Assembly: GCA_032622095.1 (NCBI GenBank) | Contig: CP136067.1 | Coordinates: 56,709,899 to 56,773,898, forward strand | Reading direction: 5' to 3' | Length of the DNA stretch: 64,000 nt | Source: Siphonodentalium dalli | Taxonomy: Eukaryota; Mollusca; Scaphopoda; Gadilida; Siphonodentaliidae | Part shown: positions 3,001-51,239 of the stretch, piece after piece | How positions within the stretch are numbered: position 1 is the stretch's first letter | Layout of the letters: each line of letters starts with the position of its first letter | Made by a program: the position numbers and the translations under genes | Notes under the pieces: generated by a model | The model's input: only the letters and a program-made list of their open reading frames with translations | Databases searched by the model: none | Told to the model about the DNA's origin: nothing

Positions 3001-3605
3001 TTTCTTATTCTGACATTTTTGTTATAAACCTCTCCAGTTAAGAGATCAATATTTTTGATTAATGTCGGTATAATGTATTAAATACCTCAAGAAAGTAAAA
3101 TCACATATTGCACTGTACATCGAGAACAACCAATCCAACGAGCGTGTTGTAGCTATAATAAGTATCAAAAGCCCGCCGATGACAATGTTAACCCGTTGAG
3201 TTGTGGCATTCTTGAGTGAGTACTTTTTTACTGCAGGGGGTATTGTTCAGGTAAAACATCACAGAACAATTATGGACGTATATATGTGCTTCATTTAAAC
3301 TTATTGTGAATAACAACCCACGCAGTAATGTGAGACATATTTCTGCACCAACAATCGGTTGCACCGTGACCTCGTTGCATTGGCGAGACGGTTGACTCGG
3401 TACTTTGAGGTGGTTTCCCAATACTTTTGTTTGCAGCAGCTGGGGGAAATTTCAAGTATATTTCAGCATACCATCCACTCGTTTGCGAACTGGTTGCTTA
3501 ATTTCTGTGACATACGTTCCAGCAGTTTACGATAAGGCCCCTCGACAAATATCAATCGATTGTGCAGTTAATTTCTCATAACTTAAACATAACATATATA
3601 TAATA
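1..3605. other. Stretch without recognisable genes
   Basis: I see no exon, RNA gene or clear repeat here. Open frames on both strands are short (under 100 codons), lack recognisable domains and are not supported by convincing splice sites. The composition is AT-rich and uniform. Distant repeat relics are possible but cannot be shown by eye. Confidence 0.5.
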
Positions 3606-5371: not shown

Positions 5372-5387
5372 TTATTGATTAATTATT
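5372..5387. repeat. Target-site duplication, left copy (retrotransposon)
   Basis: The 16-base string TTATTGATTAATTATT occurs here and again at 8455-8470. The two copies lie exactly outside the region with reverse-transcriptase homology, so they read as the target-site duplication of the enclosed non-LTR insertion. The sequence is AT-rich, so some chance similarity is possible, but 16 identical bases at the expected places is strong. Confidence 0.7.
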
Positions 5388-5884
5388 GATTGGTTTAAAC
5401 ATATTTATTTATCAAAATGATATGGTGACGGGATTGGAGGACAATTGCTAGCCACTTAGATGTACCTCCTCTCCATATGACAACACTCAATACAACTTTA
5501 CAATTATAGCAGCATAGTAACAGTGCATACACATATATAAGAAATATACAACAAAAGTTTTGTGTTTGTGCTAGTCCCCCCTTAACCCAAGTCTGTGATA
5601 TCAGTTTTTTTCTCTCATATAAATCACTTTCTCACTCACTCCTTCTCCGAGCTTGTTTCAATGATTGACATGCAGGGTTTTGGAAGAGTCGAAGTCCTTC
5701 AGACATATCTCATTCCAATCTCAGGTAAGTTGAAAGTTTGTTGTATCTGTGAAAGTAGTGTCTCTTAAAAAGTCTTGGACAGCTTTGAAAATGGACTCAT
5801 TTTCATTATTCTTTAGATCAGGGTCTCCAAATAGCAAACATTTTACCGAATAAATGTTGAAGGGTAAGAGTTTATTGTATAGAC

Positions 5885-6728
5885 TTATTCTGGCATAAAA
5901 ATGAACAGGACATTCAAAATAAAATGAAATGCATTCTCTTCATGATATCCGCATATGCATGCTTTAGTATCAGCGATATAATTTAGCTTTTTATCAGCTT
6001 GTAAGTTGCTACATTGATTTCTCAGTCTGCAGTGAGAAATATTTAGTAAACGTTTACCAACATTGAAGTATTTTGGTGGTTTGATTGGTTTCCGTTTGAT
6101 TGATTCCTTAAAGATGTCTTTCCCAAGAGCGTTCCATTTGTTAATGCAAGTAGGAAAGAAGGTCACGTCAGTTCTCTTACTTCCGGTTTTTGGTGGGACA
6201 AAGTCGGATGAGTTACGTAGGTCTTTGTCACACCTTTCGCGGAATGTGGGTGGGAGGAGTTCAACGAGATAGTTGGGGGGCCTTTTTAACAATATTATGG
6301 AATATCGTCATTCGTCTGGTATATCGTCGATTTTCTAGATTCTCACATCCAAGTTCGAAAAGAAGCCTATCATTCGGAACAGATCGAGTACACCCTGTGA
6401 CTATTCTGGCTGCCTCGAATTGAATATCATCCAATTGTTTTAGCAAGTAAGCAGGTGCCCCGAACCAGACGGTGCTACCATACTCAATTAGAGAGCGTAC
6501 ATATGATAAATATAAAGTTTCAAGTGTTTCACGATTTTTCGAATCTGAGACAATCTGGCATAAGCCTTCTGACATATAGCATCTATATGTGTGTGTTCCA
6601 AGTGAGATCGTCATCAATTTCCAGACCTAAATGTTTGTGTTTGTGAGTATTCCAGTCGCACACCATCAAAAAATATTATTGGTTTAATTATTTTTTGTTT
6701 AGATGTGAATAACATTAAGTCTGTTTTG
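5885..6728 (-). pseudogene. Reverse transcriptase C-terminal region, frameshifted relic
   Basis: Read on the minus strand, this encodes the end of a non-LTR reverse transcriptase. The order is KTDLMLFTSK (about 6725), a thumb-like KHLGLEIDDDLTWNTHI, then LSYVRSLIEYGSTVW and AAPxL-type sequence, then SF-P/W-N-type sequence (TFFPTCINKWNALGKD). It finishes in a C-rich stretch with CICGYHEENAFHF. The pieces lie in different frames. One shift is in a short CACAAA repeat near 6645, one lies near 6500-6540, and one is at a C-run near 6278. It is therefore a non-functional relic. The upstream part of the same domain continues beyond the foldback insert at 8404-8449. Confidence 0.8.
6723..6728. repeat. 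6-bp target duplication, left copy (foldback element)
   Basis: GTTTTG here and at 8398-8403 immediately flank the foldback element. On the minus strand this is CAAAAC within an S-K-T-D-L codon run of the reverse transcriptase. Removing the element and one copy of the 6-mer leaves the reading frame continuous, which confirms both ends to the base. Confidence 0.8.
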
Positions 6729-6770
6729 TACGGCAGCGTAGAAGCGCCACCTCCTCTTTTGTTACTAACT

Positions 6771-7062
6771 TGATTAAACAAGTTACTAACTTGTTTAATC
6801 AAGTTACTAACTTTTTTAATCCATTTAGCTAACTTGTTTAATCAAGTTAGCTAACTTGTTTAATCAAGTTAGCTAACTTGTTTAATCAAGTTACTAACTT
6901 GTTTAATCCATTTAGCTAACTTGTTTAATCAAGTTACTAACTTGTTTAATCAAGTTAGCTAACTTGTTTAATCAAGTTAGCTAACTTGTTTAATCAAGTT
7001 ACTAACTTGTTTAATCCAGTTAGCTAACTTGTTTAATCAAGTTAGCTATCTTGTTTAATCAA
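6771..7062 (+). repeat. Left palindromic 22-bp array of the foldback element
   Basis: About 13 units of the type AACTTGTTTAATCAAGTTAG, some with GCT inserted, make up this array. Each unit is nearly its own reverse complement, and the array as a whole is inverted relative to 7890-8365. Confidence 0.9.
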
Positions 7063-7229
7063 TCACCAATAGCCATTTTATGTCGGGTTATTATATTGGT
7101 TGAAACATACTGATTTCTGATTTTATTGTTGAAAATATTTATACGGTGTTGATAGTAACAAGATGGCAGCCGCTGTGCGTTTTATTCAGCTGTACTTCTA
7201 TCTTGGTTTTTCACAAAAAAGGGCCGTAT

Positions 7230-7858
7230 ATCTACCCGTACTTCCAATGTACTTCCAATGTACTTCCACTAATATATTTCCAATGTACTTACAATGTACT
7301 TACAATGTACTTCCAATATACTTCGAATGTACTTCCACAATGTACTTTTGCAATGTACTTCCAGTGTACTTCCACAATGTACTTCCAATGTACTTCCACT
7401 AATGTACTTCCAATGTACTTCCAATGTACTTATAATGTACTTCCACAATGTACTTCCACAATATACTTACAATGTACTTCCACAATGTACTTTACAATGT
7501 ACTTCCAATGTACTTCCAATGTACTTCCACTAATGTACTTCCAATGTACTTCCACAATGTACTTTTACAATATACTTTTACAATGTATTTCCAATTTACT
7601 TCCAGTGTACTTCCACAATGTACTTCCAATGTACTTCCACTAATATACTTCCAATGTACTTCCAATGTACTTCCAATGTACTTCCATAATATACTTCCAC
7701 AATGTACTTACAATGTACTTCCACAATGTACTTTTACAATATACTTTTACAATGTACTTCCAATGTACTTCCAATGTACTTCCACTAATGTACTTCCACT
7801 AATGTACTTCCAATGTACTTCCAATGTACTTCCAATGTACTTCCACAATGTACTTTTA
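7230..7858 (+). repeat. Internal 11-14-bp satellite of the foldback element
   Basis: Roughly fifty units of AATGTACTTCC occur in one orientation, with variants such as CACAATGTACTTC and CTAATGTACTTC. Unit-length variation creates several overlapping stop-free frames that encode only MYFQCTSNVLP-like repeats. These are not genes. Confidence 0.9.
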
Positions 7859-7889
7859 CCCCCCAAACCGGCCGGTATGCAGCAGCAGT

Positions 7890-8365
7890 AACTTGATTAA
7901 TCAAGTTAGCTAACTTGATTAAACAAGTTAGCTAACTTGATTAAACAAGTTAGTAACTGGATTAATCAAGTTAGTAACTTGATTAATCAAGTTAGCTAAC
8001 TTGATTAAACAAGTTAGTAACTTGATTAAGCAAGTTAGCTAACTTGATTAAACAAGTTAGCTAACTGGATTAAACAAGTTAGCTAACTGGATTAAACAAG
8101 TTAGTAACTGGATTAAACAAGTTAGTAACTTGTTTAAACAAGTTAGCTAACTTGATTAAACAAGTTAGCTAACTTGATTAATCAAGTTAATAACTTAATT
8201 AATCAAGTTAGCTAACTGATTAAACAAGTTAGCTAACTTGATTAAACAAGTTACTAACTGGATTAATCAAGTTAGTAACTTGATTAATCAAGTTAGCTAA
8301 CTTGATTAAACAAGTTAGCTAACTTGATTAAACAAGTTAGTAACTTGTTTAATCAAGTTAGTAAC
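7890..8365 (+). repeat. Right palindromic 22-bp array of the foldback element
   Basis: About 20 units of the type AACTTGATTAAACAAGTTAG, the reverse complement of the left array's unit. Perfect 18-bp palindromes (AACTTGATTAATCAAGTT) occur among them. The array is longer than its left partner, so the arms have changed copy number independently. Confidence 0.9.
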
Positions 8366-8397
8366 AAAAGAAGAGGTGGCGGTTCTACACTGCCGTA

Positions 8398-8403
8398 GTT
8401 TTG
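8398..8403. repeat. 6-bp target duplication, right copy (foldback element)
   Basis: This GTTTTG matches 6723-6728 exactly and directly abuts the element's right terminus. Confidence 0.8.
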
Positions 8404-8449
8404 GAACTATTGAATTTTACCTTCCATGTGTCTGCCCAAAATTTCATTT
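8404..8449 (-). pseudogene. Reverse transcriptase fragment upstream of the foldback insert
   Basis: On the minus strand this encodes MKFWADTWKVKFNSSK, the typical W-x-V/M-x-F-N-x-x-K-T sequence just after the catalytic palm of non-LTR reverse transcriptases. It joins in frame to KTDLM at 6728 across the foldback insertion. An in-frame TAG lies a few bases further upstream, where the LINE homology ends at the 16-bp target duplication. Confidence 0.75.
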
Positions 8450-8454
8450 CCTAA

Positions 8455-8470
8455 TTATTGATTAATTATT
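8455..8470. repeat. Target-site duplication, right copy (retrotransposon)
   Basis: Exact match to 5372-5387. It marks the 5'-truncated end of the minus-strand LINE copy. Confidence 0.7.
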
Positions 8471-11400
8471 AATATTTATTGTTGCATATTGGCTGCTATC
8501 AATATTTACACAAATGGTATTAATTATTTCTTATAATTGTTCCTTTGGTCAACTTTGACTATCGGAAAATAAAAATAAAAATATGCGGCTGAAAAAAATG
8601 TAATCGATATTAAAGTCTCATCCTTTCGGCAACATGGAATGGGTTTTAATTACTTAAATGATTAATATAGTAATTTGCCTTTTATCTGTGATGATATGAG
8701 AAATGGTAATTGTCTTTTTTTGCTAACATTAAATTAATTTTTAAATAAATTAAGTAATATACAGTGAAATTATTTGTTTAATTATTGTTTATTACATTTT
8801 TGCGCACGTTGGCATCTCTCTGAGTGCATTCTAGTTCAATTTGCGTTGTTTTCTATTCTAGTAAGTAGGCTTTCCGAATATTATGAATAAAATGGGGCCT
8901 ATATATGTGTCGTACTCATTGTGGCCACACCGTTCCTAACACTCGACTTATGTGAAAGATAGTGAACAAAGGTAAGAAAATGGCAATGCATATCAATGTG
9001 TTATTACTGTTTTCTAGGGTTTACTTTTATCTTATATTTCTATATGAGTTTTATTTTCTCCCTATATTCCGTTCAATCTAGATACAAAACCAGAAGCTCC
9101 TAACGCCCATGGATACTCCAAGTAGATTTCGCGATTTTCGACAATCGGCTCCCTTTTTCGATGGCTGCTCATTGAAGCCATCTCCTTACCCATGATCCTA
9201 AGATATACAACTAATTGATTTACCCAAAAAGACTGATCATATTGCGAATGTCACGTGTGAATATTATGAAAATACCATCAGTGAGTCTGCTTTGCGTGTT
9301 TGTATATACGGGCTTTGTGGTGAAGGAATAAAAGGTATCAATTCGTTGAACGACAAGGGTTAACCCACGTATACCAGCTGATGACCGTAATCGATTCGAG
9401 CACATACGAAACAAATCAAGCACTTAAGAATGGGATATATTTATGACAAAAAATAATGTAGCGAATCGTAAACCTCGGCAATAAAATTACTTTATTGTAT
9501 TCTCCCTGCGGTCTCCTGAGCAGAAAATTGCTTGGAACTATTATCCGATGCGTTTAACGATACACGCTGAAAGGCCTGATGATTTTTAATGCCTGTCGGT
9601 GGGACACCAAACATCGTTAGATGTTTCTGTCTGATAAAAACACCTATGGTCGATAGAACTGGTAATTCGCTGTCCAGAGATACATAGACCATTGCGTATC
9701 GCTGAAGCTCGAGAGGATGATTTGGGATTGTGTATCGATGATGTACGTTCAGTGCGTCGTAATGATGAATCGGTATGTTGGCCAGTCAATAACAGAAAAC
9801 CATGCATCAAATCATAAAGTCCAAGATACTTCTCCGCTAATCAGTAGTATTATCAAACTAAATAGAGATGTAGGCCAATGTTTTTTCAATCACCAATAAC
9901 ACTCGAAATGATATACAATCGTTGATATCAAATTTAGGCCTAATTATTTCTCTCGCTGTGTTGCTTTTCTATTGCCGAAGTATGCTGGTAACATTCAATG
10001 TAAAGACAAAAGATAATGATGGGCATCAATGTTTTAGTACCTTTAATATATTGAATGCGAAATCGATATTATTAAACTAAAAGACAAAGCGAATAGATGT
10101 TCTTTATTTATTCATATAACATATCAGGGAAACATAGCGATTACCGTTATATGTGCACGTATATACGGTGCAAGACAAATGAACCCATTCAGTCGATTTT
10201 CATATGTAGAGCCGTGTTAAATTAACCTTCTGACACTAAATTTCCACCGTCGTGAGGTGGCCCTAACGCAATTTCGTCTATCAATATTCGCGATTATATT
10301 GTATACATTTGATTGAAAACTATTTTACATGTACATTTACGTTCACTTCATTCGTGACAACAGAATAGTTTAACATTATATATTATATGAACTTCATGAC
10401 TGTAACTGAGTTCCAATGCCCTATCTGTCGTGACATAATAGTGGTTATTACTAACATACCTATTTCTAAAATGTGACTATTCACATACACTATTTGGTTT
10501 TAGTCTATCAAACCACCCTGTCTCCACATCCCTTGTATGCAATCCTGAAATTATTCCTCATTGATTAACAACCGGACCACCCCATCCCGAGCCGTACTCT
10601 AAATGTCCAGTGTTATCGGAAATTGTCGATCGTCTATAGTCAGACCATACAGTATAGACCATTTATCAATAAACGATAACCGGGCATCTGTATGCATTGA
10701 CTGACCATCTCTGATGCTTATATCACTCCGATTAATGGGTTCTTCAGACATTAATTCAATGAATCACCACCGCGGGTATATATATGCATGCCTCAGCCAC
10801 GTCACACGTCAATGTCTGCGATTGCGCATGCAGTTCCTACGTATATATGAATGAATGAAGGGATTTGAATATTGAGACTGTACCTTTACTAATTCCAATG
10901 GGCACATGTCCGTGTGAAGGAAAGTCCACGCGAAGAGTTCGGATATTGTAACCCCCAGAGGATTTCAATTTCAAGCTTTTAAGGCTACTTAACGTTTTAA
11001 ACTCCATTTTATGCCGGATAGTCGTCTTGCTATGTAGAACTTGAGTATCTTAAATGCTATCTATACTACTTCCATTGTCTACTGATACTGCTGTTGATAT
11101 ACAGATCTCAGACACGGTTCCATCTTCCAATGTCAAAATCACATGCAATCATGTATAGACACCAAACGGCCCAAATAAATTGCCACATATAACGGTTGAA
11201 TTTCGATAAGTATTCTTAATAATGTATGGTACTATATTACCTTCCGGGGGGGGGGGTCTTACGAAATATTACACAGGGCCGGGTGGGTGAATGGTCCGGA
11301 GCCAAGCCTATTTTTCCAGTGTTTGCAAATTTGTTCCTGTTGGCTTGTTTTATTATTTACAAACACCAAGTCTTTTATATTGCACATCAGCCTAAATAAC

Positions 11401-13833: not shown

Positions 13834-16440
13834 ACATGTGTGTATATTATACCGATATGAGTACGAAAACAATCATTTAAATTTGTTTGTTAGTTTTAAT
13901 TCGGGTGGGAGGATAAAACACAAGTGATGATGGGTGTGATGAATGTTAAAGAATCCGTATATGTATTCATGTACATCTATATATGTCATACTATGACCGA
14001 CGAATGGGAATAAACGAATTTGAATTATAATTTTATGGTGTCAACTTGGATGGGTCACCTTCAATGAAAGTGCCAATGACACTGAAGCTCAACTTGGAGA
14101 GGAACTAATATTAAATGTTACAGTTAAAGCAGGGATTAAGGAATGCGGAAAGTTGGTATGGCTATGTATTCTAGATTATCACTCCGATGATCATATGAAG
14201 TTTGGCAACGATCGGACGAGGAGTTTGGCCTTGTATGTGCCAATGGATTTAGTGATGCAATCAGTAAAATCCAAAATGGCTGCCAGCGGCCATGTTTTTA
14301 ATCTAAAATAGTACAAATTCATTGGCTCATACCGAGAGATGATACCAAACATGCCCGTACATTTTCAAAAAATGTTGCCACTAATTGTGGGCTGCATGGT
14401 ATGCCGATGGATACAAATGTGAAATCCAATATGGCCGCTGACGGCCATGTTTTTTAACGGAAAAAAAATATGGTAAGCTCCCATGTAGATGTCACCCCCG
14501 AAGATCCAAAGGAAGTTCGGTGAGAATCGACTGAGAGATGTGACCTGTATGTGCTATTATAGGATTTAGTCAAACAAAGATTAAAATTCAAGATGGTCGC
14601 TGGCAAACAGGTTTTTAAGAGAATTCGGAAAAACATGGTAAGCTCCCACCTAGAGGTCACTCCGAATATGCATATGACGTTTGGCGACGATCGGACGATG
14701 CATTTGACCTATAGGGTGTGCCAATGATTTAGAGATCCAAACAGTAAAATCCATTATGGCTCCCAGCGTCCATGTTTTTCATCGAAAATCGTTCAAATCC
14801 AATAGCTCCCAACTAGATGTGATCCCAAGCATGCCTGTGCATTTAAAAAAAAACGCTAATGTGGGCTTCATGGTGTGCTAATGGATTCAAAAGTGAAATC
14901 CAAGATGGCCGCTGGTGGCTGTTTTTTTAAAGGAAATTCGGGAACAAAATGGTAGGTCCCATTTAGAGGTCACCTCGATGATCCTTATGAAGTTTGGTGA
15001 TGATCGGATGAGGGATGCAATTTGCTGCTCTCTTTAATACATAGATACATGTAAATGAATAGGACCAACCAAAGTTTACCGCGAAAGTACGGCATCACGG
15101 TTTGTCAGGTGTTGTCACACACACTATACGCTTATTTGCGTTGACGTCACATTTAAATAAACTTCGGTATCGGCGGCACTATTAAAGAAATTTGGTCGGC
15201 GATGCATGTTGATCAGTATTGCCGATATCACACCGTTCATAAAACACCGTTGGTTCTTCCCACCTCATATATTGGACAAGCTTGAGTAATTGGGATATAC
15301 CTTCAAGGTATATAGCACATATTCTAACTGTTTCATCACATCACAAATATCATACTGACACAATGGTCAACACGCTTTCGATGAGGTGTGAACAAAGTGT
15401 ACGGAGCGAAGAAGTGCTTCAAAGCGAGGCGAGAGGATTCCCTCAGGGCGCATTTCGGGGTTTTACAATAGGCCGTTAATCCATTCTTAGCTGCCGAACT
15501 GGAACACAATATACAACATCCATACATCTATGACACGAAGCGGTTTGTCTTTTAAAAACGTCGATGAATATATTAATAGAATTATATATATATACGTGTT
15601 GCCCGACAAACGATCCCAATGTTGGCAAATGTACACGTGTACACGTATACACATCGTTCTTATTCGCGGTTGAATTCAACGCCTATTAAATGATTCCGAA
15701 GTAAAATATGAACATTACCCAGTTTTAGTCAGAATTTCCAACTTGCAAGACCAAATCGTGACAAAAACGGGATATTTTTATTGTCATTTTTATAAAGTTG
15801 CTTGCGTATTGCATTAGACGAGGAAACCTTTGGCGGAGTTCAATTCGACTGATGCTAAGTTGTTGGATTTGGGTGGAAACGTCCCCATGCATGCACCATG
15901 AGCACCGAACACGACAAGATACGTCTTGCGTCAGAGTTCTGTCCACGAATAGAATCGCGTGATATTAACTATTAAGTCTGTCAACATTATTCCAACACTA
16001 CTCGATTTGGTATTGAATAGGTTGAATTTGATCCGGAGAACATAACATCCTAACGAATGTTTCAACAGCAATTTATCCCAAATGACGACATTCGAAGCCC
16101 AGAAACCGATAAGCTATATTGGTTCGGCGGATTTAATTTGTTATATTGAATGGATGTGCATTCCAACCAATTTAATAGAAACACTAAAAGTAAGGTCAAT
16201 ATCGGTTATGGATTCTGTCCGTGACGAGAAGCCTTATTTCTTCAAAATGCCATATCATGGTTAATATGTGGCGTTTATCTTCCTATACATCATTTCATAA
16301 CGAATTGGTTATCATGCCAGCACAGGCGCCTCCACGTGCGGGGATTTAGCATGACTGGCCAATGCAATCTGTTGCATGGAAGCGCTGTATTGATGTGTCT
16401 CTGACAAATTATAGGGAGTGTGTGTCACGACAAACCCCAC
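13834..16440 (+). repeat. 2.6-kb tandem duplication, copy 1
   Basis: This 2,607-bp block is repeated immediately downstream with about three visible differences: a C-run one base longer near 14495, A versus G near 14808, and T7A3 versus T8A2 near 14927. The block begins at ACATGTGTGTATATTATACC and ends at ...ACAAACCCCAC. The end of copy 2 and the start of copy 1 share only ACA at the junction. It contains a ~160-bp degenerate tandem repeat (14250-14960) and short open frames of 60-73 codons with no recognisable domain. It may be a very recent tandem duplication or an assembly artefact. Confidence 0.95.
14250..14960 (+). repeat. Degenerate ~160-bp tandem repeat, five units
   Basis: Five spaced copies of an ATCCAAxATGGCxGC...CATGTTTTTxA core lie near 14268, 14426, 14585, 14750 and 14908. 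Each is followed by a segment resembling GTAAGCTCCCACxTAGAxGTCAC and then AAGTTTGGCGACGATCGGACGA. Units have diverged strongly, so the array is old although the 2.6-kb block containing it was copied recently. Confidence 0.75.
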
Positions 16441-19046
16441 ACATGTGTGTATATTATACCGATATGAGTACGAAAACAATCATTTAAATTTGTTTGTTAG
16501 TTTTAATTCGGGTGGGAGGATAAAACACAAGTGATGATGGGTGTGATGAATGTTAAAGAATCCGTATATGTATTCATGTACATCTATATATGTCATACTA
16601 TGACCGACGAATGGGAATAAACGAATTTGAATTATAATTTTATGGTGTCAACTTGGATGGGTCACCTTCAATGAAAGTGCCAATGACACTGAAGCTCAAC
16701 TTGGAGAGGAACTAATATTAAATGTTACAGTTAAAGCAGGGATTAAGGAATGCGGAAAGTTGGTATGGCTATGTATTCTAGATTATCACTCCGATGATCA
16801 TATGAAGTTTGGCAACGATCGGACGAGGAGTTTGGCCTTGTATGTGCCAATGGATTTAGTGATGCAATCAGTAAAATCCAAAATGGCTGCCAGCGGCCAT
16901 GTTTTTAATCTAAAATAGTACAAATTCATTGGCTCATACCGAGAGATGATACCAAACATGCCCGTACATTTTCAAAAAATGTTGCCACTAATTGTGGGCT
17001 GCATGGTATGCCGATGGATACAAATGTGAAATCCAATATGGCCGCTGACGGCCATGTTTTTTAACGGAAAAAAAATATGGTAAGCTCCCATGTAGATGTC
17101 ACCCCGAAGATCCAAAGGAAGTTCGGTGAGAATCGACTGAGAGATGTGACCTGTATGTGCTATTATAGGATTTAGTCAAACAAAGATTAAAATTCAAGAT
17201 GGTCGCTGGCAAACAGGTTTTTAAGAGAATTCGGAAAAACATGGTAAGCTCCCACCTAGAGGTCACTCCGAATATGCATATGACGTTTGGCGACGATCGG
17301 ACGATGCATTTGACCTATAGGGTGTGCCAATGATTTAGAGATCCAAACAGTAAAATCCATTATGGCTCCCAGCGTCCATGTTTTTCATCGAAAATCGTTC
17401 AAATCCAATAGCTCCCAGCTAGATGTGATCCCAAGCATGCCTGTGCATTTAAAAAAAAACGCTAATGTGGGCTTCATGGTGTGCTAATGGATTCAAAAGT
17501 GAAATCCAAGATGGCCGCTGGTGGCTGTTTTTTTTAAGGAAATTCGGGAACAAAATGGTAGGTCCCATTTAGAGGTCACCTCGATGATCCTTATGAAGTT
17601 TGGTGATGATCGGATGAGGGATGCAATTTGCTGCTCTCTTTAATACATAGATACATGTAAATGAATAGGACCAACCAAAGTTTACCGCGAAAGTACGGCA
17701 TCACGGTTTGTCAGGTGTTGTCACACACACTATACGCTTATTTGCGTTGACGTCACATTTAAATAAACTTCGGTATCGGCGGCACTATTAAAGAAATTTG
17801 GTCGGCGATGCATGTTGATCAGTATTGCCGATATCACACCGTTCATAAAACACCGTTGGTTCTTCCCACCTCATATATTGGACAAGCTTGAGTAATTGGG
17901 ATATACCTTCAAGGTATATAGCACATATTCTAACTGTTTCATCACATCACAAATATCATACTGACACAATGGTCAACACGCTTTCGATGAGGTGTGAACA
18001 AAGTGTACGGAGCGAAGAAGTGCTTCAAAGCGAGGCGAGAGGATTCCCTCAGGGCGCATTTCGGGGTTTTACAATAGGCCGTTAATCCATTCTTAGCTGC
18101 CGAACTGGAACACAATATACAACATCCATACATCTATGACACGAAGCGGTTTGTCTTTTAAAAACGTCGATGAATATATTAATAGAATTATATATATATA
18201 CGTGTTGCCCGACAAACGATCCCAATGTTGGCAAATGTACACGTGTACACGTATACACATCGTTCTTATTCGCGGTTGAATTCAACGCCTATTAAATGAT
18301 TCCGAAGTAAAATATGAACATTACCCAGTTTTAGTCAGAATTTCCAACTTGCAAGACCAAATCGTGACAAAAACGGGATATTTTTATTGTCATTTTTATA
18401 AAGTTGCTTGCGTATTGCATTAGACGAGGAAACCTTTGGCGGAGTTCAATTCGACTGATGCTAAGTTGTTGGATTTGGGTGGAAACGTCCCCATGCATGC
18501 ACCATGAGCACCGAACACGACAAGATACGTCTTGCGTCAGAGTTCTGTCCACGAATAGAATCGCGTGATATTAACTATTAAGTCTGTCAACATTATTCCA
18601 ACACTACTCGATTTGGTATTGAATAGGTTGAATTTGATCCGGAGAACATAACATCCTAACGAATGTTTCAACAGCAATTTATCCCAAATGACGACATTCG
18701 AAGCCCAGAAACCGATAAGCTATATTGGTTCGGCGGATTTAATTTGTTATATTGAATGGATGTGCATTCCAACCAATTTAATAGAAACACTAAAAGTAAG
18801 GTCAATATCGGTTATGGATTCTGTCCGTGACGAGAAGCCTTATTTCTTCAAAATGCCATATCATGGTTAATATGTGGCGTTTATCTTCCTATACATCATT
18901 TCATAACGAATTGGTTATCATGCCAGCACAGGCGCCTCCACGTGCGGGGATTTAGCATGACTGGCCAATGCAATCTGTTGCATGGAAGCGCTGTATTGAT
19001 GTGTCTCTGACAAATTATAGGGAGTGTGTGTCACGACAAACCCCAC
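16441..19046 (+). repeat. 2.6-kb tandem duplication, copy 2
   Basis: This 2,606-bp copy is almost identical to 13834-16440. Unique sequence resumes at AGGCACTATCC. All minor open frames of copy 1 recur here unchanged, which reflects the recent copying and not conservation of coding. Confidence 0.95.
16857..17566 (+). repeat. Degenerate ~160-bp tandem repeat, second block copy
   Basis: Copy of the array at 14250-14960, carried within the duplicated 2.6-kb block. Confidence 0.75.
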
Positions 19047-21389
19047 ACAGGCACTATCCTCAAATTTGGTTAAGTGATCCTGCGATATACGGCTCTGATA
19101 TAGATGGGTCATTTTTATTTTCTAACCAGAAACAGTTCCGTTATTTTTCTAAATTGTCCTTCTCGTGGTCATTGACACATCCCAACTATTCGAAGTAACG
19201 ACAGCATCTGAATGGAACATTATTAAATATATATATTTTATATTTCAGACCTCGAATAGAAATCACAGATACACATATAACACCGAAATTTGACTGCCAA
19301 CTAATATTGATGTCACAAGTACATGTAGGAGAGTATATATTCCTGGATAGAGAAGTTGACATCTCTACTCTGTCTGGGATAGTGAACATGGACATGCGAA
19401 ATGACACTGTCACTTCCCTTTTGTTATTTTAAAGTTAGATATTCTGAAATATTTCCATAATGGCTACCTTGGTCGTTGCAAAATGATTGGAGGAGACATC
19501 TTGTTGGAATCAAATCCATTGTTAAAATATTTTTAAGTTTGTACTTAATATCACATGCTTATAATGGTCTTTGTTGAGAATTACTAGGGCTCTTAAAGGT
19601 GGCAATTACATTTTACATGATATAGAAGAACAACGATACCTATTCTTAGAGATTTTCTCCGACGTCATTTTAACTATCATGACACGACAAATTAAGTCGA
19701 CCGGACTCAAAATATTCCACATTCCCGGCTCAGGTTGTCCATGGCTCGGGTGGTCACACTTCCTTTCAGCCATGATGTTGTTTGGGCAATGCAATGCTGT
19801 TTAGACACATGCTTTGCTGGTTTTATAAAATTGGCATTTTCGATATTTCTAAAAAGTCTGAATAACGGGAACTCGTGTTTCAAAAGAATACAATCACTGA
19901 AACAAAACGCCGCGAATTAAATTTACCGATAAAAATCGCTCTGGTAACGACAAAGTGACGGAGTCTAACGGACCCTTACGTAAGCATATTTGAAGTAAAA
20001 TAAAGCCCATAACTTAGGACCACTTATCTTCAACACCATCAACAATGAATATTAACTTGGCGGTACGAGAATGCCAACTTGACAGGCCTTGACATAAGCG
20101 CACTGCCGAATATAAACTTGGCACTGGAAGGCATCTATGTCTGTTAGCATTTCAAAGAAAAAAATTAGACTTTGTCACACCTAATTTCACACTGTTGTCA
20201 TTCGCAATATGAACAAAAGATCGGTTTTATGTAGCAATTGCGAAACAACAGCTGTATCGTATATCTAAGTAAGCATATACCATGCATGGCTAACTTCAGA
20301 TGTGTTCTTTCCGGTACCACGGCTTCTGTTGTAGTATATCTTTGAGCGGTACATGCGCGAGGTATACTGCTTCATACCAATGACATCCTCTGCACTTGCG
20401 CGATGTAATTTCTACCATCTGGTTGGAATAACACACCCACATAGACACTAAATAACTGCAGTCGGACTCGGCACAACGAAACTAATTCCGAACATCTTGT
20501 CTAGAATCAGCTGCTAAGATCAAGAGTTATGTTAACACGTTCATATCATCAGCTAGTTCCGGGTAACAAGATTCCATCGTCAACTGATCTCAGGAAGCCA
20601 TTCGAGAACTCGAATCATTACAGGAATGTTTTAATGGTGATTAGAATGTTTCGTCTAGCATGTTGCACTGTACTAGGTCATCCATTCAATAATAAAGTGA
20701 GTTTGCGCATGATAATGCTGTGGCCCTGGGTCCTGGTGGTCATTTGTATATGGTACATCTACATGTAACTAAAGTCAACACATTGAAGCACTGAGGAGGT
20801 TTGAAGCCCGGTGATAGAAATTAGTAATTATTTACATATTCCTATACGGAGTCGAACTTTATGTGCATCAGAAGTACTTATACTAGTCATGGAATTTAAC
20901 AGAAATCGCGCGTCTGATTTTCCTTCGGCAGTGAAAAATAAAGAGCGTTCTTTTTAGTCTATTCCTTATGTATGACGAACGATTGAAAACAGGAGAAAAT
21001 GCTATAATTTTGATAAATAAAATTCTTCATATTATATAACGCCTGTATATCCGTAGCTCGTGTATGTATCGAGATTCGTGTAGCTGACCCACCCCTTCCA
21101 AATTATGTAGAGGCTCAAATCAGTTTTGTTTTGCCAGTTTTACTTTAATTTGATAATGGGTACGTGGATATACACTGTATGTTGTAATATTGTTTCTTGC
21201 ATGGTTTAACATCTATGGACCTCGTTCACAATAAGCTGATTTGAGGAAATGAACCATTACTGTGCTATGTATATGTAGCTGCTCTCAGGGAAAACGTCCC
21301 ATCGATATGACAAATTGCATAAACTTAATTCCGAATCAAAAATTGTCGCCCTGTGTGGCCAACATATCCTCGCTCAAATAATTAAGTGA
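19047..21389. other. Stretch without recognisable genes
   Basis: Nothing with domain or splice support. An AATAAAGAGCGTTC motif near 20938 is a member of the recurrent GAGCGTT motif set. Open frames are at most 79 codons and unrecognised. Confidence 0.45.
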
Positions 21390-21907: not shown

Positions 21908-22427
21908 TTAATGGCACGGGCGGCGTTCGTTGCAGAAATGTTCATATTTGTTCAAATCGCCATCAACAAAAGGAAAATTAAAACATATATAGTTTTGTCC
22001 ATATGCCAAACATAATATAGTATATTGTCGTCAAGACGTACGATGGTGTACGTAAACAAGAACCTGCTCGTGTTACAGAAGTTTTGCTTCTTTTTACATA
22101 ACACAGCGCAATTATATTGGTTAATCACACACAGATGATATAAACGCTCTTTATTATTTCCATATCAGGAAAACAGTAACAAATAACGCTCTTTATGTTT
22201 ACCATATCAGGATCTAAACAAAAGCCAGGTTGTGTAACGTTTTTTGCTTTTGTTTACATAACAAAGGAAACACATTTGACAATAACATACTGTTTATGCC
22301 ATATTTCTGATTGGTATAAGAACAAAGTCTGTCTATATTTTACTATTCTTTCTGTTTATGGCGGTTTTTGACGGAGCTGAATATCTTAACAGCATACCCA
22401 CCGCCAACACCGCCCGTATCTTTAATC
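21908..22427 (+). repeat. Left arm of a ~530-bp inverted pair
   Basis: The arm starts at TTTAATGGCACGGGCGGCG and ends at CACCGCCCGTATCTTTAA. It matches 23262-23803 in reverse complement along its whole length. Each arm also has its own imperfect terminal inverted repeat: both ends carry a GGGCGGyGTT segment followed by CGCCATmAACA. This suggests that each arm is one copy of a ~530-bp non-autonomous transposon. The interior includes CATATCAGG and AACGCTCTTTA motifs twice. Confidence 0.8.
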
Positions 22428-23261: not shown

Positions 23262-23803
23262 AAAAGATACGGGCGGCGTTGGCGGTGGGAATGCTGTTAA
23301 AATATTCACCTCCGTCAAAAACCGCCATAAACAGAAGGAATAGTAATATATAGACATACTTTGTTCTTATGCCAATCAGAAATATGGCATAAATAGAATA
23401 TTATTGTCAATTTGTCCCCTTTGTTATGTAAACAAAATAAAAAAACGTTACGTTTCCTGGCTTTTGTTTAGATCCGGATATGGTAAACATAAAGAGCGTT
23501 AGGGCCTATTTGTTACTGTTTTCCTGATATGGAAATAATAAAGAGCGTTTATATCATTGTTGTGTGATTAACCAATAGAATTGCGCTGTGTTATGTAAAC
23601 AGAAGCACAACTTCTGTAACGCGAGCAGTCTCTAGTTTACGTACACCATTGGACGTCTTGGCGACTATATACTATTTACGCGCTGATTAAGTTTGGCATA
23701 TGAGCGGAACTGTATATATTTTGGTGTTCCTTCTGTTGATGGCGATTTTAACAAATATAAATATTTCTGCAATGAACGCCGCCCGTGCCTTTAATGGGTG
23801 GAT
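23262..23803 (-). repeat. Right arm of a ~530-bp inverted pair
   Basis: Reverse-complement copy of 21908-22427 with scattered substitutions and small indels. It is flanked on both sides by GGGTGGATG(CAT)GGTCCGAG (23244-23259 and 23804-23822). These flanks look like a target duplication for this arm alone, with a 3-bp difference, so the two arms probably inserted separately. Confidence 0.8.
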
Positions 23804-43562: not shown

Positions 43563-43796
43563 TAGCCCGTTCCATACTAAATTGATTCTATCATTCAGTT
43601 ATAACAGTAAATGTTTGAATGGTTTATTATTCATTTTGAGGGATGTTCGGGGAAAATGAGCAGGCAGACGAAATTATAATACAAGTGCAGAAGTTATTCA
43701 TATTCTTTTAGATAATAAGTTCAACAAACGATCAACGATTGTTATTATCTGAACATTTCTTACGGGATAACTATACTCATCAATGAGTGTTTATAG
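43563..43796. mobile_element. TTAA/CCCTTT MITE, left part, split by giant foldback
   Basis: Starts near TTTTAGCCCGTTCCATACTAAATTG. It contains TTATTATTCATTTTGA, CAAGTGCAGAAG, AATAAGTTCAACAAACGA, TTATTATCTGAACATTTC and ATCAATGAGTGTTTATA in the family order. It stops abruptly where the foldback starts; its end resumes at 49753. Confidence 0.65.
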
Positions 43797-45420
43797 TTGG
43801 GGAGCCCGCATATGTTCTATTTACACTTTTGCGTACAAAAGGTTTGACCCCCTAAAGTTGGTACCAATAATGGAACATTCTGAAAAACCGATTTCTTAAG
43901 TTGCGCATTCCTGGGGTTTAGGGGCCGCTGAACCCCAAAAAGTGCCAAAAATCACTTCTATTTACACTTCCGCGTACATCGATGAATTTTGGTTTGTTGA
44001 CACTCCTAAGTGTACTGATTAAGAAAACACAACTTAAGAAAGGGATTTTCCTGGGGTTTTCAGATAAGAAAGGGGTCCCATGCTGAACCCCAAAACGTGA
44101 TTTTTCACTTTTTTTTACACTTTCGCGTACATCTATAATTTTTGGTCTCAAAGTACTTTGATAGATACTAATTATAAAAACACAACTTAAGAAGCAACTT
44201 TTCTTGGGGTTTTAAGATAAGAAGGGGATCATCGGGTCACGTAAAAAATCACTTTTATTTACATGATTGCATTCGTCCAACGTGTGTGTATGTGCGTAAA
44301 CCCCTGGAACGTTGCACTATTACAACCAATGACACTTTTTTTGGCCAAAATTGAAACTCACCATCCAAGATGGCCGCCAAAATGGCCGCCGGAAGTTGAA
44401 AATATGACATTTTTTCACAAATATCTTCTAGATCAATTCATGCTGTTTGGAACTGGTTGAGTAATGCAACTTTATTTTGTGTTTTTATATTAACTGATCA
44501 TTGGAGCAATTAAATATGCATTTATTGGGGTCCTAACCCCTTCCAATCCCTCAAAAATTCGATTTTACAGAACGCAGTACAAAATTTTACAAAAAATCAC
44601 AATTGGGATTCAAGTCATATTTCAACAAAAAATGAAAAGAACATTGTAATCTAAGTGAGGCATATCATTACCTATGAATATTCCAAATCTCTGGAACCAT
44701 AAATCTTACCTTGGCTCAAAATGGCTGCGAAAATGGCCGCCAAAATATAGAAAATGGTAAATATTGCCCCAGGGTGTCCTGCAATCGCTTACAAGTTGTG
44801 GTTGATATACACAATTGGCTAATCTCTTTTCTATACATTGCATACTAACATGTCTGATGTACCAAGGATCATTTTTACTATTGTCACCACTGACATTTAC
44901 CAGAAATATTGGACATAAATATCGGCAAGAATTCACTTTTCAGGGTTCGACCATTTGTTCAAGTAAAATGTAACTATCTTTGGATTGAAAGGTGTTTATT
45001 GTTTTGGTCTATCTTAAATGTGTCACACTGCGGTGTTTATAGACTAAATTGCTCAAGATGGCTTCCAAAATGGCAACCAAATTTGTAAAAAGTTAAAAGT
45101 TAACATCCCGAACATTATTCTCTGCGTTATCCGAAAAAAGTGGCAAATTGTGACTCACTTGGTTATTGTACGTCTTAGTTACAATGTAATTAACTGACAA
45201 CTACGTTCTATTATGTTTGTCCCAGTTCCGTATGTGGCATGACAAATTCATTTTAAAGTTGCAGTATGGAATTTTGCGGAGAACCATATTATTGAAAGGA
45301 AATGGGCAGAACTTTGAGACTGAACTGAGATGAACCATGATATGTGGGTATTTTGGCCCATTATGATAAAAATTTATCAACTGGATACAGGGTGGAAGCC
45401 AAGATGGTAGCCAGGGAGTT
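43797..45420 (+). repeat. Left outer arm of the giant foldback
   Basis: Inverted copy of 47941-49752. Near the outer end, a ~140-bp subrepeat occurs three or four times (TTTACACTTxCGCGTACATC, then AACACAACTTAAGAA, then TGGGGTTTxAGATAAGAA). Further in are segments such as CCAAGATGGCCGCCAAAATG at 44366 and their relatives at 44720 and 45060. Confidence 0.85.
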
Positions 45421-46042
45421 ATGATCATAGATGAGGATAATAGGTATACAGGGAGTTATTGTATGGTCATGAATGATGTGTGGGTATATAGGGAGTGCCC
45501 CATTGGTAGCGGTGGGACGTATATTTATATATGTTGTGGATGTGTTATCATTGGTGGTGTATGGGGAGTAGATTTATTGTCATGGATGGCGTGTATGAGT
45601 ATGGCAAGTATGGAACTTATGAGTGGTCGTATGTGCGGATATTGGTATATCTGGAAGGGCTCACCATTGGTGATGTGCATCTGTATACCTGGATTGACTC
45701 CATGGTCATGGGTTTGGCGAATAGGTATACATGTAGTGGCTGTATGGTCCATGTTGAGTTGAATATGTATACAATGAGTGACTGTGTGATCGTGAATGTA
45801 GTGAATATGTATACATAGAGTGACTATATGGTCGGGTGTAGGTGTATACCTGGTGTTCATGCATGGTGACTCGTGGCTGTATCGTCATTTGTGGTATGTA
45901 CGGGTATAACCAAGTATGGTTGTATGATCAGGTGTACTAGTACATGTACGTGTATAAAGTGGGTGACTATGTTGTCATTTGTGTGGTGTTCATGTACATA
46001 TGGAGTGACTGGGGTAATGGGTGGGTTGTACATGTGTACCTT
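45421..46042 (-). repeat. Left inner array of degenerate ~42-bp units
   Basis: Units contain GGTATACATGGAGTGAC-like and ATGGTCATGxGTG-like text. They are the reverse complement of the units at 46128-47940. Because 42 is a multiple of three, several frames stay open by chance for 90-115 codons. Confidence 0.75.
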
Positions 46043-46127
46043 GGGTGGCTATCGCTTTCCACAATAACCCAAGGATATGTTAATCAATAGAGAGGTCGTG
46101 TCATATCGTGGAAAGCGATAGCCACCC
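46043..46127. repeat. Palindromic core of the giant foldback
   Basis: GGGTGGCTATCGCTTTCCAC at 46043-46062 and its exact complement at 46108-46127 enclose a 45-bp loop. It marks the point where the array orientation flips. Confidence 0.85.
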
Positions 46128-47940
46128 ATTATCACACAGTCATTACATATATACATAAACACCACAGACATGACAATATAGTTACCCACTGCATACATGT
46201 ACACCTGACCCATGACCACGGATGACCATACAGCCACGCGTCACAATGCTGGCACACCGGGTATACTCCTAAACATGACCCATAACCATATAGTCACTCC
46301 ATGTATACCCATTCATCTCACCATTGGCCATAAGGTCATCCCCTGTATACCTATTCTCCAAACGCATGGTCAAATGGACAATCAAACGACTCCCAAAAGC
46401 TTAAAGCTTGTTGTCGAATCCCCTTCATATCATCACTGTTAATCTTTGTCTTGTTTTTTGTAATATACGAATAATATGGAATAAATACTGTTCACACCAA
46501 TCAATATATACATCAACACCACAACAATGACCATAAAGTCATTCCGGTATACATATGCACATCACCAATGGCCGTATAGTCACTCACTTCATACACATAC
46601 CCTCACCCATGTTACCTGGTATACTCCTTCACCTGACCTATGGCCATATAGTCACCCCGTGTGTACCTATTCAAAACATTCACACACGATCATGGTCAAT
46701 CCTTGTATTTTATATTCACCCCAACATTGGCCATGTCAATCCCTGTATCCCTATTTGTCACACCGTAGCCGAATAGCCACTCAATATATACTAATACACC
46801 CCAGCCATGTCAGTATAGTCACTCCATGTATGCATATGCACCTCACCCATGGCCATATAGCCACTCGCTATATACACATATCCCTCGCCCATGACAATAA
46901 AGCAACACGTGTGTGTACTGGTATAACCTACACATGACGATACCGACACGAGTCACCAAACAGGAACACCAGGTACATGTATACTCATACGCCTGCCACC
47001 CCCTATATAGATGTTCATTACAGTTATGATCATACAGTCACTACTTGTATACCTACATGTACTCATCTCACCATTAACCATACAGTCACTACCTGTATAT
47101 ATATTCGACACACATAGTCATATAACCACTCGATATACATATGCAGCCCACCCTAGACCATAGATTCACTACAGGTATACATGTAACTCTCACTAATGGC
47201 CATTCAGCCCTTCCAGATATACAAAAAAACCCGCACATACGACCACTCAAACAATCCATACATGCATATACACCTCACACATGACAATTCAGCAATTCAC
47301 TGTATAATCATACACGCCATCCATGATAATACAGCTAAGCCCTATACACCCACCAATGATAATACATCCACGATATATATAAATATACATCCACCCGTTA
47401 CCACAAGGACACTCCCTATGTACCCACACGCTCGATAATGTCCACCCAGCTTACTCCATGTATTAATATTCAATCATGACCGTACAGTCATTCCATGTAT
47501 ACCTATACACATTACCCGTAACCATAAAATCACTACCTATTTATCCACACACCCCATCCATGATCACACAGACAACACATGTACATCCCACCCACGACCT
47601 TACAGTCACTCCATATATACATAATCAACACATAGATGACCATGTAGCTATATCCATACACCACACCAATGACCATACAGGCACACCGGATGCACCCGTA
47701 CTGGATATACACAATCATACACCATACAGTCACTCCATGCATACAGATTCACCTCACACCTGGCCATGACCTCTCCCTGTATACCTAGATGCATCTTACC
47801 ATGGACAACCCACTTATAACCATATAGTCACTCATTGTATACCTACTCACATCAGTCATGACATACAATAACTCCCTGTATACCTATTCACCTCACATAT
47901 GATCACAGAGTAACTCCATGGCTACGATCTTGGCATCCAC
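46128..47940 (+). repeat. Right inner array of degenerate ~42-bp units
   Basis: About forty loosely conserved units of the form GTCACTCCATGTATACCTAT, then TCACCTCACCCATGGCCATA. Units are far from identical, which suggests age or tolerance of change. The frames seen here (for example 46527-46937) encode only histidine- and threonine-rich repeats derived from the unit. A short non-repeat patch lies at 46390-46500. Confidence 0.8.
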
Positions 47941-49752
47941 ACTGTATCCTGTAGACATTTTTTTTTTATCACAATGGACCAGAATAGCCAAAGATTATGG
48001 TCCATCTCAGTTCTGTCTCAAAGTTCTGCCCATTTCCTTTCAATAAATATGGCCAAAATCACAAAAGAGGTTCTCGGCAAAATTACATACATTAAAATGA
48101 ATTTGTCATGCCCCATACGGAACTGGGACAACTGGGAATAGAACATGTAGTTGTCAGTTAATTAACTAACACGTATAATAACCAAGTGAGTCACAATTTG
48201 CTACCTTTTCGGATAATGCAGAGAATGTTAGGGATATATGTAAAAAATTAGCATTTTACAAATTTGGTTGCCATTTTGGAAGCCATCTTGAAAAATTTGG
48301 TTTATAAACACCGTAGTGTGACACATTTAAGATAGACCAAAACAATAAACACCTTTCAATCCAAAGATAGTTATATTTTACCTGAAAAAATGGTCCCAAC
48401 CTGAAAACTGAATTTTTGCCAATATTTATGTCAAGTTTTTTAGAGAAAAGTCCAATATTTTTGACGATGTCAGTGGTGAAAATAGTAAAAATGATCCATG
48501 GTGCATCAGACATGTTAGTATTCAATGTATAGAATGCAGAATGGCCAATTTTATACATCAACACAACTTGTAAGCGATTGCAGGACACGCTGGTGTAATA
48601 TTTACCATTTTCCATATTTTGGCGGCCATATTGGCAGCCATTTTGAGCCAAAGTAAGAATTTTGGTTCCAGTGATTTGGAATATGCATAGGTAATGATAT
48701 GCCTCACTCACATTACAAAGTTCTGTACATTTCTTGTTGAAATATGACTAGAATCCCAATTGTGATTTTTGTGTGTGAAATTTTATACCGCATTCTGTAC
48801 AATCAAATTGTTGAGGGATCGGAAGGGGTTAGGACCCCAATAATTGCATATTTAATTGCTCCAATGATCAGTTTAATATACGAAACACAAAATAAAGTTG
48901 CATTACTCAACCAGTTCCAAACAGCATGAATTGATCTAGAAGATATTTGTGAAAAAATGTCATATTTTCAACTTCCGGCGGCCATTTTGGCCCAAAAAAG
49001 TGTTAATATGTCTTAGCTTCACGAAAATATATACATTTGTATACATTCTACAAGATTTTCCCGCTATAATTTTCATAAAACTGGCTCACTTATAGTTTTA
49101 GAAAATGGATCGTGTTGTGGGGGGGGGGGGGGGTAACAAGTCTCGTTCTTATCAGAAAACGACATGAATATATATTTCTTAAGTTGATCGTATCGATTTA
49201 GGGATGTATTGGTTGTAATAGTTTAACGTTCCAGGGGTGTACGCATATACACACACGTTGGACGAATGCAATCATGTAAATAAAAGTGATTTTTTACGTT
49301 TTGAGGGGTGACCCGATGACCCCCTTCTTATCTTAAAACCCCAGGAAAAGTTGTTTCTTAAGTTGTGTTTTTATAATTAGTATATATCAAAGTACTTTGA
49401 GACCAAAAATTATGGATGTACGCGAAAGTGTAAACAAAAGTGAAAAATCACGTTTTGGGGTTCAGCATGGGACCCCCTTTCTTATCTGAAAACCCCAGGA
49501 AAATCCCTTTCTTAAGTTGTGTTTTCTTAATCAGTACACTTTGGAGTATCATCAAACCAAAATTCATCGATGTACGCGGAAGTGTAAATAGAAGTGATTT
49601 TTGGCACTTTTTGGGGTTCAGCAGCCCCTAAACCCCAGGAATGCGCAACTTAAGAAATCGGGTTTTCAGAATGTTCCATTATTGGTACAAACTTTAGGGG
49701 GTCAAACCTTTTGTACGCAAAAGTGTAAATAGAACATATGCGGGCTCCCTAA
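47941..49752 (-). repeat. Right outer arm of the giant foldback
   Basis: Reverse-complement copy of 43797-45420 with many substitutions. It carries an extra ~190 bp (about 49010-49215), including a 15-G run at 49119-49133, which is absent from the left arm. Open frames here (for example 48256-48711, minus) are by-products. Confidence 0.85.
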
Positions 49753-49777
49753 CTATTAGTATATATGGAAGATAGGG
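49753..49777. mobile_element. TTAA/CCCTTT MITE, right end, separated by the foldback
   Basis: TATTAGTATATATGGAAGAT then AGGGTTAA matches the family's right terminus (TATTTAGTAAAGAAAGGGTTAA). It completes the MITE begun at 43563. Confidence 0.6.
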
Positions 49778-50780
49778 TTAATATGTTGTTCGTGTTGCAC
49801 ATATATAGACGTATCCTACTGGTTGCATTTTGTGACTCCGATACATATTTATTTCTCAATAGCTAATGTGCTGTATTATATATAGGTCCCATCTTATAGT
49901 TACTTATATGATAGATTATAGATTGTCATTTATCTTAAAGGAATATTCCTAATTCTGAACATCTATGCAGCGGGGACCTATTCTTAAACAATTCTATAGA
50001 TGTGTTGCAAATTTTAAAGTAGCCAATATATAAAGATTACACGTTATTTGTTTAAATGCCAGTCAGTGGCTGTTTTAAAGCGACATAATGACTATAAACC
50101 GACTTCATATACCACGAAAAGACATTGTAGTTGAAAGAATTACTGAGACAAAATTATACAACTGCATGCATGGCCCCGTCTTCTCTACATAATGTAGCAT
50201 GTATATAAGAAAGACCGTTCTCCCTATATATCATACCTCTAATTTGCGGAATGTTGACAGTAGTGCATATGCATGTTCATTGTAACAGATTGTTGCTTTG
50301 GGGTATATGTAAGTACGACATAAATTACCTGTATTTTGGAGCTACAATTATAGACCACGGAAACTGTTAATTTACATGTCCATGTCACCCAGGAGAAACT
50401 CGGGAAATTTGGCGAGTTGTTGTCTCCAGAATATTTATAATTATGTGTAATAATGTGCTTTGTAATATGAGTTAATATAAAATAACTTATAAGTGGTCGG
50501 ATAGCAAACCTTAATTCTCCGAACACTATATAGGGATTATGCCTTTTATTGAAGCTTATATTCGACATCGCATCAATTGAAAACACCGACGGATCAGACG
50601 TTGGAACTTTGTATATAGCGGAGATGAGCCATTCAATATTACGGCAAATTATAATCGACTCCATGGACGGGTCGTGGGTTTTTGTGAAGACAAATGTTAT
50701 AGTCATGTATATAGTGGCATTGAAAGCCTACAAGTACTTTTATTTTCTTCTCATTTACATATTCAGTTCATGTTTTTCAG
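49778..50780. other. End of predicted intron 1
   Basis: No repeat recognised. The last 45 bases form a strong pyrimidine-rich acceptor tract (TATTTTCTTCTCATTTAC, then TGTTTTTCAG). An in-frame ATG at 50705 would read through this tract as a hydrophobic, signal-peptide-like segment into the Ig exon. I consider this more likely a by-product of the pyrimidine tract. Confidence 0.5.
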
Positions 50781-51140
50781 CTCAAGTTGGCGACGCACTA
50801 ACTAAGACGGGACTGGTCGGGTCCGAGGTATCATTCCAGTGTAACTATTCGGGTCGTGACCCATGGTTTCTTGTCCAATGGCGGAGAAGACTGCAAGGTT
50901 CTGAAAAGGTGGAAACCATTCTCACAGTCTCAGCGTTTGACATTCACAGCCCGGTTTTCTCTCGGAACGTCGATCCTAACTTTAAGCAAAAAATAATTCA
51001 TAAGACTATAAAAAGGAACGGGAACTCAACGTTTGTGTTCAAAATTCTCGCCATTAGTTGTGCAGATGTCGGAGATTATATGTGTGATATAAGTACAACT
51101 GAGGGTATTGTACCGCACAAAGAATCCTTCAAATTAATAT
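50781..51140 (+). CDS. Ig receptor gene exon 2: V/I-set-like Ig domain
   Basis: This 360-bp, phase 1-1 exon starts after TGTTTTTCAG and ends at ATAT|GTGAGT. It encodes one extracellular immunoglobulin domain of about 120 residues, starting AQVGDALTKTG. Counting from that A, the B-strand cysteine is C21 (EVSFQCNYS), the core tryptophan is W34 (LVQWRR) and the F-strand motif is D96-V-G-D-Y-M-C102. The 81-residue cysteine spacing suits a V- or I-set domain. N22-Y-S and N82-S-T are possible N-glycosylation sites. A symmetrical phase-1 exon is standard for metazoan Ig domains. A role in cell-surface recognition, adhesion or immunity is inference from the fold only. Confidence 0.85.
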
Positions 51141-51239
51141 GTGAGTATATATATAGACTCGTCCAGGCAACAGTTCAGCTATACGTTAAATGTTAGTTTC
51201 GTACTATACAGCCATGCAGGAGTTGGCACTGCACCATTT

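Follow-up and report, generated by a model that had tools for sequence, protein, structure and literature searches.

In a 64,000-nucleotide stretch of the scaphopod mollusc Siphonodentalium dalli (contig CP136067.1 of assembly GCA_032622095.1, hereafter the window), an element of 5962 bp built almost wholly of nested inverted and tandem repeats was found at positions 43794-49755. Our data make it very probable that this element is a copy of a non-autonomous foldback-type DNA transposon family. A previous reading of the letters without database searches (the sequence-only reading) had called the segment a foldback element, and this identity is strongly supported by the finding of many copies across the genome, with constant ends and target-site duplications of 3 bp. 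We propose that a transposase supplied in trans by another element would recognise the terminus TAGTTNGGGAGCCCGCATATG, perhaps together with the arm subrepeats, and that the element would move by a cut-and-paste mechanism, with cuts staggered by 3 bp and A+T-rich triplets as its main targets. Its palindrome may have grown by repeat expansion and by copying between the arms as breaks were repaired, a mechanism also proposed for Galileo.

Comparison of the element with itself revealed outer arms of ~540 bp (43793-44330 and 49208-49756; 94.9% identity over 549 columns), inner arms of ~1.15 kb (44376-45497 and 47829-48991; 84.3% identity over 1183 columns) and arrays of a degenerate 42-bp repeat that oppose each other across the element centre. 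All three nested levels of inverted symmetry described in the sequence-only reading are thus present, but their count was slightly low, as the inner arms add a further level of ~340-bp subrepeats, with spacings of 351, 337 and 334 between CAAGATGGCCGCC-like motifs. The inverted ~42-bp minisatellite arrays were recovered both by Tandem Repeats Finder (TRF) and by self-comparison, and the core palindrome with its 20-bp arms was found as a predicted pairing of 46042 to 46128. Two measurements were corrected: the period of the outer subrepeats, put at ~140 bp, is 154 bp by TRF and self-comparison, and the ends, placed at 43797 and 49752, are each three bases further outward (Table 1). The CAAGATGGCCGCC-like motifs, which recur in the inner arm, resemble the YY1 binding motif.

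Table 1. Parts of the foldback element and its target-site duplications, in window coordinates
Feature	Position	Strand	Remarks
Whole foldback element	43794..49755	+	Termini 5'-TAGTT(G)GGGAGCCCGCATATG ... CATATGCGGGCTCCC(T)AACTA-3'; ends common to other copies
Terminus pattern, short form			5'-TAGTTNGGGAGCCC
Target-site duplication, left copy, TTA (3 bp)	43791..43793	+	Directly outside TAGTT
Target-site duplication, right copy, TTA (3 bp)	49756..49758	+	Directly outside AACTA
Left outer arm, ~154-bp subrepeats	43794..44330	+	94.9% to right outer arm; internal offset 153-155 bp
Right outer arm, ~154-bp subrepeats	49208..49755	-	TRF 49318-49597, period 154; self-alignment
Left inner arm, ~340-bp subrepeats	44376..45497	+	Marked by CAAGATGGCCGCC-like motifs at 44366, 44717, 45054, 45388
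Right inner arm	47829..48991	-	Self-alignment
Left array, degenerate 42-bp repeat (limits approximate)	45421..46041	+	TRF 45719-45833, period 42; repeat families
Right array, 42-bp repeat, opposite orientation (limits approximate)	46122..47928	-	Many spacings of 42; inverted matches 45478-46052 / 46773-47429
Core palindrome	46042..46128	.	~20-bp arms GGTGGCTATCGCTTTCCAC / GTGGAAAGCGATAGCCACC around short spacer; first core pair in fold = element 2249-2335
112-bp central segment	46386..46497	+	Alignment breaks around element positions 2593/2706

The genome, represented by one assembly of 2.23 Gb in 9 contigs, was then searched with the ends of the element. The exact 21-bp terminus occurs at 1072 places (503 and 569 on the two strands), and a reversed control pattern at none. 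A 301-bp left-end query gave matches of 98-100% at all 40 scored candidates (of 1278), spread over all nine contigs; the genome search with the element ends suggested in the sequence-only reading thus revealed a dispersed family. Of the 1072 termini, 100 were listed, all on one contig (C1), comprising 68 in pairs, 14 extra ends of one array (L015) and 18 unpaired ends. The 34 inward-facing pairs, each less than 15 kb apart, have a median length of 6061 bp (range 1170-10926), and 19 of them are 5850-6250 bp long. If this sample is typical of all 1072 termini, extrapolation gives ~360 copies with two exact ends, and the copy number is probably several hundred.

Eight copies aligned end to end (L001, L002, L004, L005, L006, L007, L009 and L010) share the architecture and the ends, and their main pieces match the window copy at about 90-97%. 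Because these copies show the same architecture, the window element is neither a chance arrangement nor a local assembly error. Copy L008 has an internal deletion relative to the window element, and L003, whose right end lies outside the sequence examined, was omitted from the end and duplication counts. Among the copies compared, the 112-bp central segment (46386-46497) is aligned through in L001 and L005 only; it is bridged in L002, L003, L004, L006, L007, L009, L010, L011 and L072, and lost with larger deletions in L008 and L014. As for copies with different boundaries, named in the sequence-only reading as counter-evidence, the internally deleted L013 (1170 bp) and L014 (4181 bp) keep the ends, but a lone 152-bp end (L065) was also seen inside other DNA, with 11.3 kb there containing no other end.

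Three copies have unusual forms. The 1170-bp derivative L013 (G000:C1:154331268-154332637) consists of outer-arm sequence alone; its ends are intact, and its target duplication is CAA. At 5543-7409 of L008 (G000:C4:189844000-189851900), about 1.87 kb comprising the right flank and the element's right end occurs as a tandem duplication, with identical flank after both ends. In L015 (G000:C1:105577700-105578700), a tandem array follows the element's right end, and its 33-bp unit consists of the last 30 bp of the element and TAA. The locus has 15 exact termini altogether, TAA after each, with one spacing of 65 bp at a damaged unit.

Target-site duplications were examined directly outside the TAGTT terminus. 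A 3-bp duplication was present at 32 of the 33 insertions checked, distributed over three sets as 9/10 (read by eye), 20/20 and 3/3, and in the set of 20, where the comparison went up to 12 bp, no match extended beyond 3 bp. The triplets in this 20-site set are mostly A+T (ATA 5, TAA 5, TAT 4 and six others once each). At 13 of 20 sites a G lies just outside the right duplication, but it has no mirror image on the left side, where C occurs in 3 of 20, and we take it as chance.

One copy, E028, is inserted in a short host repeat, and its flanks, joined with one target copy, served as an empty-site query. Of the 40 scored candidates (of 3570), 36 cross the junction without net length change, and the other four differ by 1 or 3 bases. 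Long inverted repeats commonly give rise to segmental inverted duplications in the host and to assembly artefacts, and the element could be read as one of these. Yet the matching ends on 9 contigs, the shared architecture, the 3-bp duplications and these unoccupied relatives of one site all argue against either origin, whose probability we consider negligible. The short repeat around the copy with flanks L028/L029 (G000:C1:73292007) holds AGGGAGCC(T)CGCATAT-like letters resembling the element terminus, which are perhaps a related short element or a coincidence.

To describe how the two halves of the palindrome relate, nine copies were aligned by arm; two gap-rich windows gave no value. In the outermost arms (in the window copy, the left arm to about position 670 and the right arm to about position 850), no clear left/right difference was observed, same-copy comparisons included, with all distances at 0.011-0.041; between copies, the outer windows gave 0.016-0.041 for left-right, 0.011-0.040 for left-left and 0.016-0.038 for right-right comparisons. 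In the inner windows, left and right differ by 0.09-0.15, versus 0.02-0.055 between copies within one side, a contrast that suggests old alternative forms of the inner arm present in every copy. The similarity of the outer arms suggests homogenisation or a more recent duplication. Across 11 copies, the outer arms of the same copy are slightly closer than permuted partners (mean 0.0222 versus 0.0248, P = 0.0021), which fits exchange between the arms, though subfamily history could also explain it. In the mechanism that we propose, copying between arms would keep the outermost arms alike, and the inner arms would drift into distinct left and right versions. With many paired arms, the family could be used to gauge the rate of sequence exchange between the halves of long palindromes, which bears on inversion and on the seeding of satellites.

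The element encloses six open reading frames (ORFs) of at least 90 aa, and the three of these that were scanned gave no Pfam match at E 0.01 and are broken in several of 11 copies. Most of these 11 copies have shortened versions of two ORFs, 48256-48711 and 46527-46937. Together, these data indicate that the element carries no recognisable gene. A transposase-bearing relative was sought among the listed termini. Of the 18 unpaired termini, 15 were read ~1.4-1.5 kb inward, two were assessed by an interior stretch and one (10690206) was left out; 13 of the 15 belong to the same foldback family over most of the stretch, and L056 proved to be a normal copy carrying an insertion. For 16 pairs of unusual length, the middles (stretches of 0.8-2.6 kb) were read, and these, like the two interior stretches, are all at least partly of the foldback family, with at most 912 bp uncovered; pairs near 6.0-6.2 kb were assessed from length and ends alone. 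In the 10.9-kb pair (L011/L012), no stop-to-stop frame of at least 100 aa occurs in the insertion part within L011, the part scanned.

Several observations weigh against the reading as a mobile, non-autonomous foldback family. No transposase-bearing, autonomous partner was found in the part sampled, which lies all on C1 except for five of six CACTA-type or similar loci and leaves most of the genome unsampled; for this reason, mobilisation in trans is what we infer, not what we observed. ORF 47476-47769 is mostly open and 45421-45762 fairly open in most of the 11 copies, which we attribute to the 42-bp (3 x 14) repeat. Among the insertions, L007 has no clean 3-bp duplication, its left terminus being short of the first base, and the left terminus of L010 is rearranged. 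A second candidate empty site (E024 versus L067) is not clean, with an alignment of 76% and a 2-base gap at the junction, and a single assembly cannot reveal polymorphism. Concerning the arms, the permutation test cannot separate within-copy exchange from subfamily history, and window by window (nine copies) the distance between the two arms of one copy is no more than slightly below, or the same as, that between arms of different copies.

The source of the transposase was considered in terms of the superfamilies that share the 3-bp duplication. It is possible, though less likely than not, that the family derives from a CACTA/EnSpm or PIF/Harbinger element, which would refine the reading as a non-autonomous foldback family more than rival it. 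Duplications of 3 bp are common to both superfamilies and to the foldback family, and transposases of both types are plentiful in this genome, with 78 CACTA-type matches and 150 of 150 scored Harbinger-type matches (of 910 candidates), many with long open frames. However, Harbinger elements target TTA or TAA, and these make up only 9 of the 32 duplications. Moreover, the terminus at up to 5 substitutions is absent from the six CACTA-type loci of 10 kb (of the 78 matches) that were searched, where three matches with 6 substitutions form no inward pair, and none of the listed CACTA- or Harbinger-type matches lies within 50 kb of a listed terminus (nearest about 57 kb, by inspection, with a list of termini that covers part of C1). 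The foldback termini TAGTT..AACTA also differ from the CAC..GTG given for EnSpm in the part of the source compared (PMC12730594).

Two further superfamilies with short duplications were also searched for in the genome. The PF07592 profile (ISAzo13-like, Zator) gave no match, though the control gave no signal anywhere either. PF00867, which we take to represent the XPG-type nuclease of AcademX, gave 7 matches, with open frames of at most 112 aa.

An undescribed or unrecognised transposase lineage was also considered, as the 3-bp A+T-rich duplications and the 5'-TAGTT(N)GGGAGCCC termini match no superfamily compared; in that case, the foldback architecture would have evolved on yet another lineage, and the centre could invert between the near-identical outer arms. 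We regard this combination as unlikely. Base 6 of the terminus bears on the inversion: among the 34 pairs, 20 combine A with G, 8 have A/A, 6 have C/C and none has G/G. When its position is judged against the centre, 5 copies carry the G at the left end and 4 at the right end (one of these, L010, has a rearranged left end). These counts are hints of centre inversion, and the two placements of the G are weak evidence for it, being as expected if the centre inverts by crossing-over in the outer arms.

The inverted arms also affect the predicted RNA. The minimum-energy fold of the whole element is -3360 kcal/mol, versus -1464, -1578 and -1980 for three window stretches of the same length, and 1526 of the 1705 bases of the left arm pair with the right arm. 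It is therefore structurally plausible that RNA copied from the whole element could be double-stranded over most of its length, as the sequence-only reading had supposed, and each two-ended copy is a potential source of long double-stranded RNA and a potential recombination hotspot. The strength of the fold might suggest that the locus is used by the host as a long hairpin RNA, serving as a double-stranded source for small RNAs or editing. Such folding, however, follows from the inverted arms alone, and dispersal with target duplications requires no host role, so that we consider a host-used hairpin locus highly improbable.

Elsewhere in the window, a second, unrelated foldback lies at 6729-8397. 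It has short inverted ends (ACGGCAG.GTAGAA.CGCCACCTC), and its 11-bp array (7238-7855) is flanked by two arrays, inverted to each other, of a 22-bp unit that is itself partly palindromic (6761-7062 and 7887-8365). A direct tandem duplication of 2.6 kb (13834-16443 and 16441-19049) has 99.9% identity, and a further inverted repeat pair (21908-22423 and 23263-23794) matches at 87% over 533 columns. A Pfam scan of 25 window ORFs gave a match for a single one (50549-51196), which is immunoglobulin-like and below the cut-off.

The foldback family was compared with known systems. Inverted repeats with tandem subrepeats, and dispersed copies with fixed ends and target duplications, are features of the foldback structural class, and all were found here. 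Drosophila FB is grouped with the Mutator-type foldbacks, which make duplications of 8-10 bp, and its long terminal inverted repeats are made of internal tandem repeats, as are those of the present family. The mismatch to FB noted in the sequence-only reading fits our evidence, as the best-documented foldbacks have duplications of 7-10 bp versus 3 bp here. In a search of the literature on foldback families, 3-bp superfamilies and sea-urchin TU elements, no family with these termini appeared in the titles and abstract openings listed, where termini are seldom printed, and among the matches listed for ten letters of the terminus, one paper, on E. coli resistance, contains them. The statements on published elements that follow refer to the parts of the cited papers that were compared.

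Tetris of Drosophila virilis has 8-10-bp target duplications and no known autonomous copy (PMC4079207), and Tm1 of root-knot nematodes has 8-10-bp, mostly 9-bp duplications (PMC3169594). Both, like FB, resemble the present family in having long terminal inverted repeats made of internal tandem repeats, and no autonomous copy is known for Tetris or for the present family; they differ in the longer duplications, in their termini and in the several subrepeat levels of the present family (154, about 340 and 42 bp). Rehavkus likewise ties a minisatellite to a DNA transposon, but its transposase has a PHD finger and its duplications are 9 bp long (PMC6446971), whereas no coding sequence was found in the foldback element. 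The common features, namely tandem repeats inside the long terminal inverted repeats together with minisatellites, could suggest a Mutator-type foldback such as Tetris, Tm1 or FB, or a Rehavkus element, mobilised by a Mutator-like transposase (PMC4079207, PMC3169594, PMC6446971). However, duplications of 8-11 bp are reported for Mutator-like elements in the same papers, versus 3 bp at 32 of 33 sites here, and this origin is extremely unlikely.

Galileo, of the P superfamily in Drosophila, resembles the present family in long inverted repeats that are themselves repetitive, in sequence exchange between arms and between copies, and in two-arm derivatives that lack a transposase, but differs in its 7-bp duplications, in arms of up to about 1.26 kb and in having known transposase-bearing copies (PMC3573991). 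Because the duplication is 3 bp here, membership in Tetris, Tm1, Rehavkus and Galileo is excluded, as far as these reports were compared. CACTA/EnSpm, PIF/Harbinger, Zator and AcademX are alike in duplication length, with 3 bp for EnSpm and Harbinger (PMC12730594), 3 bp for Zator and 3-4 bp for AcademX (PMC10045372); EnSpm differs in its 5'-CAC..GTG-3' termini, and 9 of the 32 duplications here are the TTA or TAA targeted by Harbinger. According to the authors on Tm1, the foldback architecture arose on Mutator and P transposases, and a Tc1/mariner element shows similar expansion (PMC3169594). The present family, which we do not claim to be unpublished, appears to add a further, 3-bp case to the foldback architectures, and a large foldback family with this 3-bp signature would add another lineage to foldback convergence.

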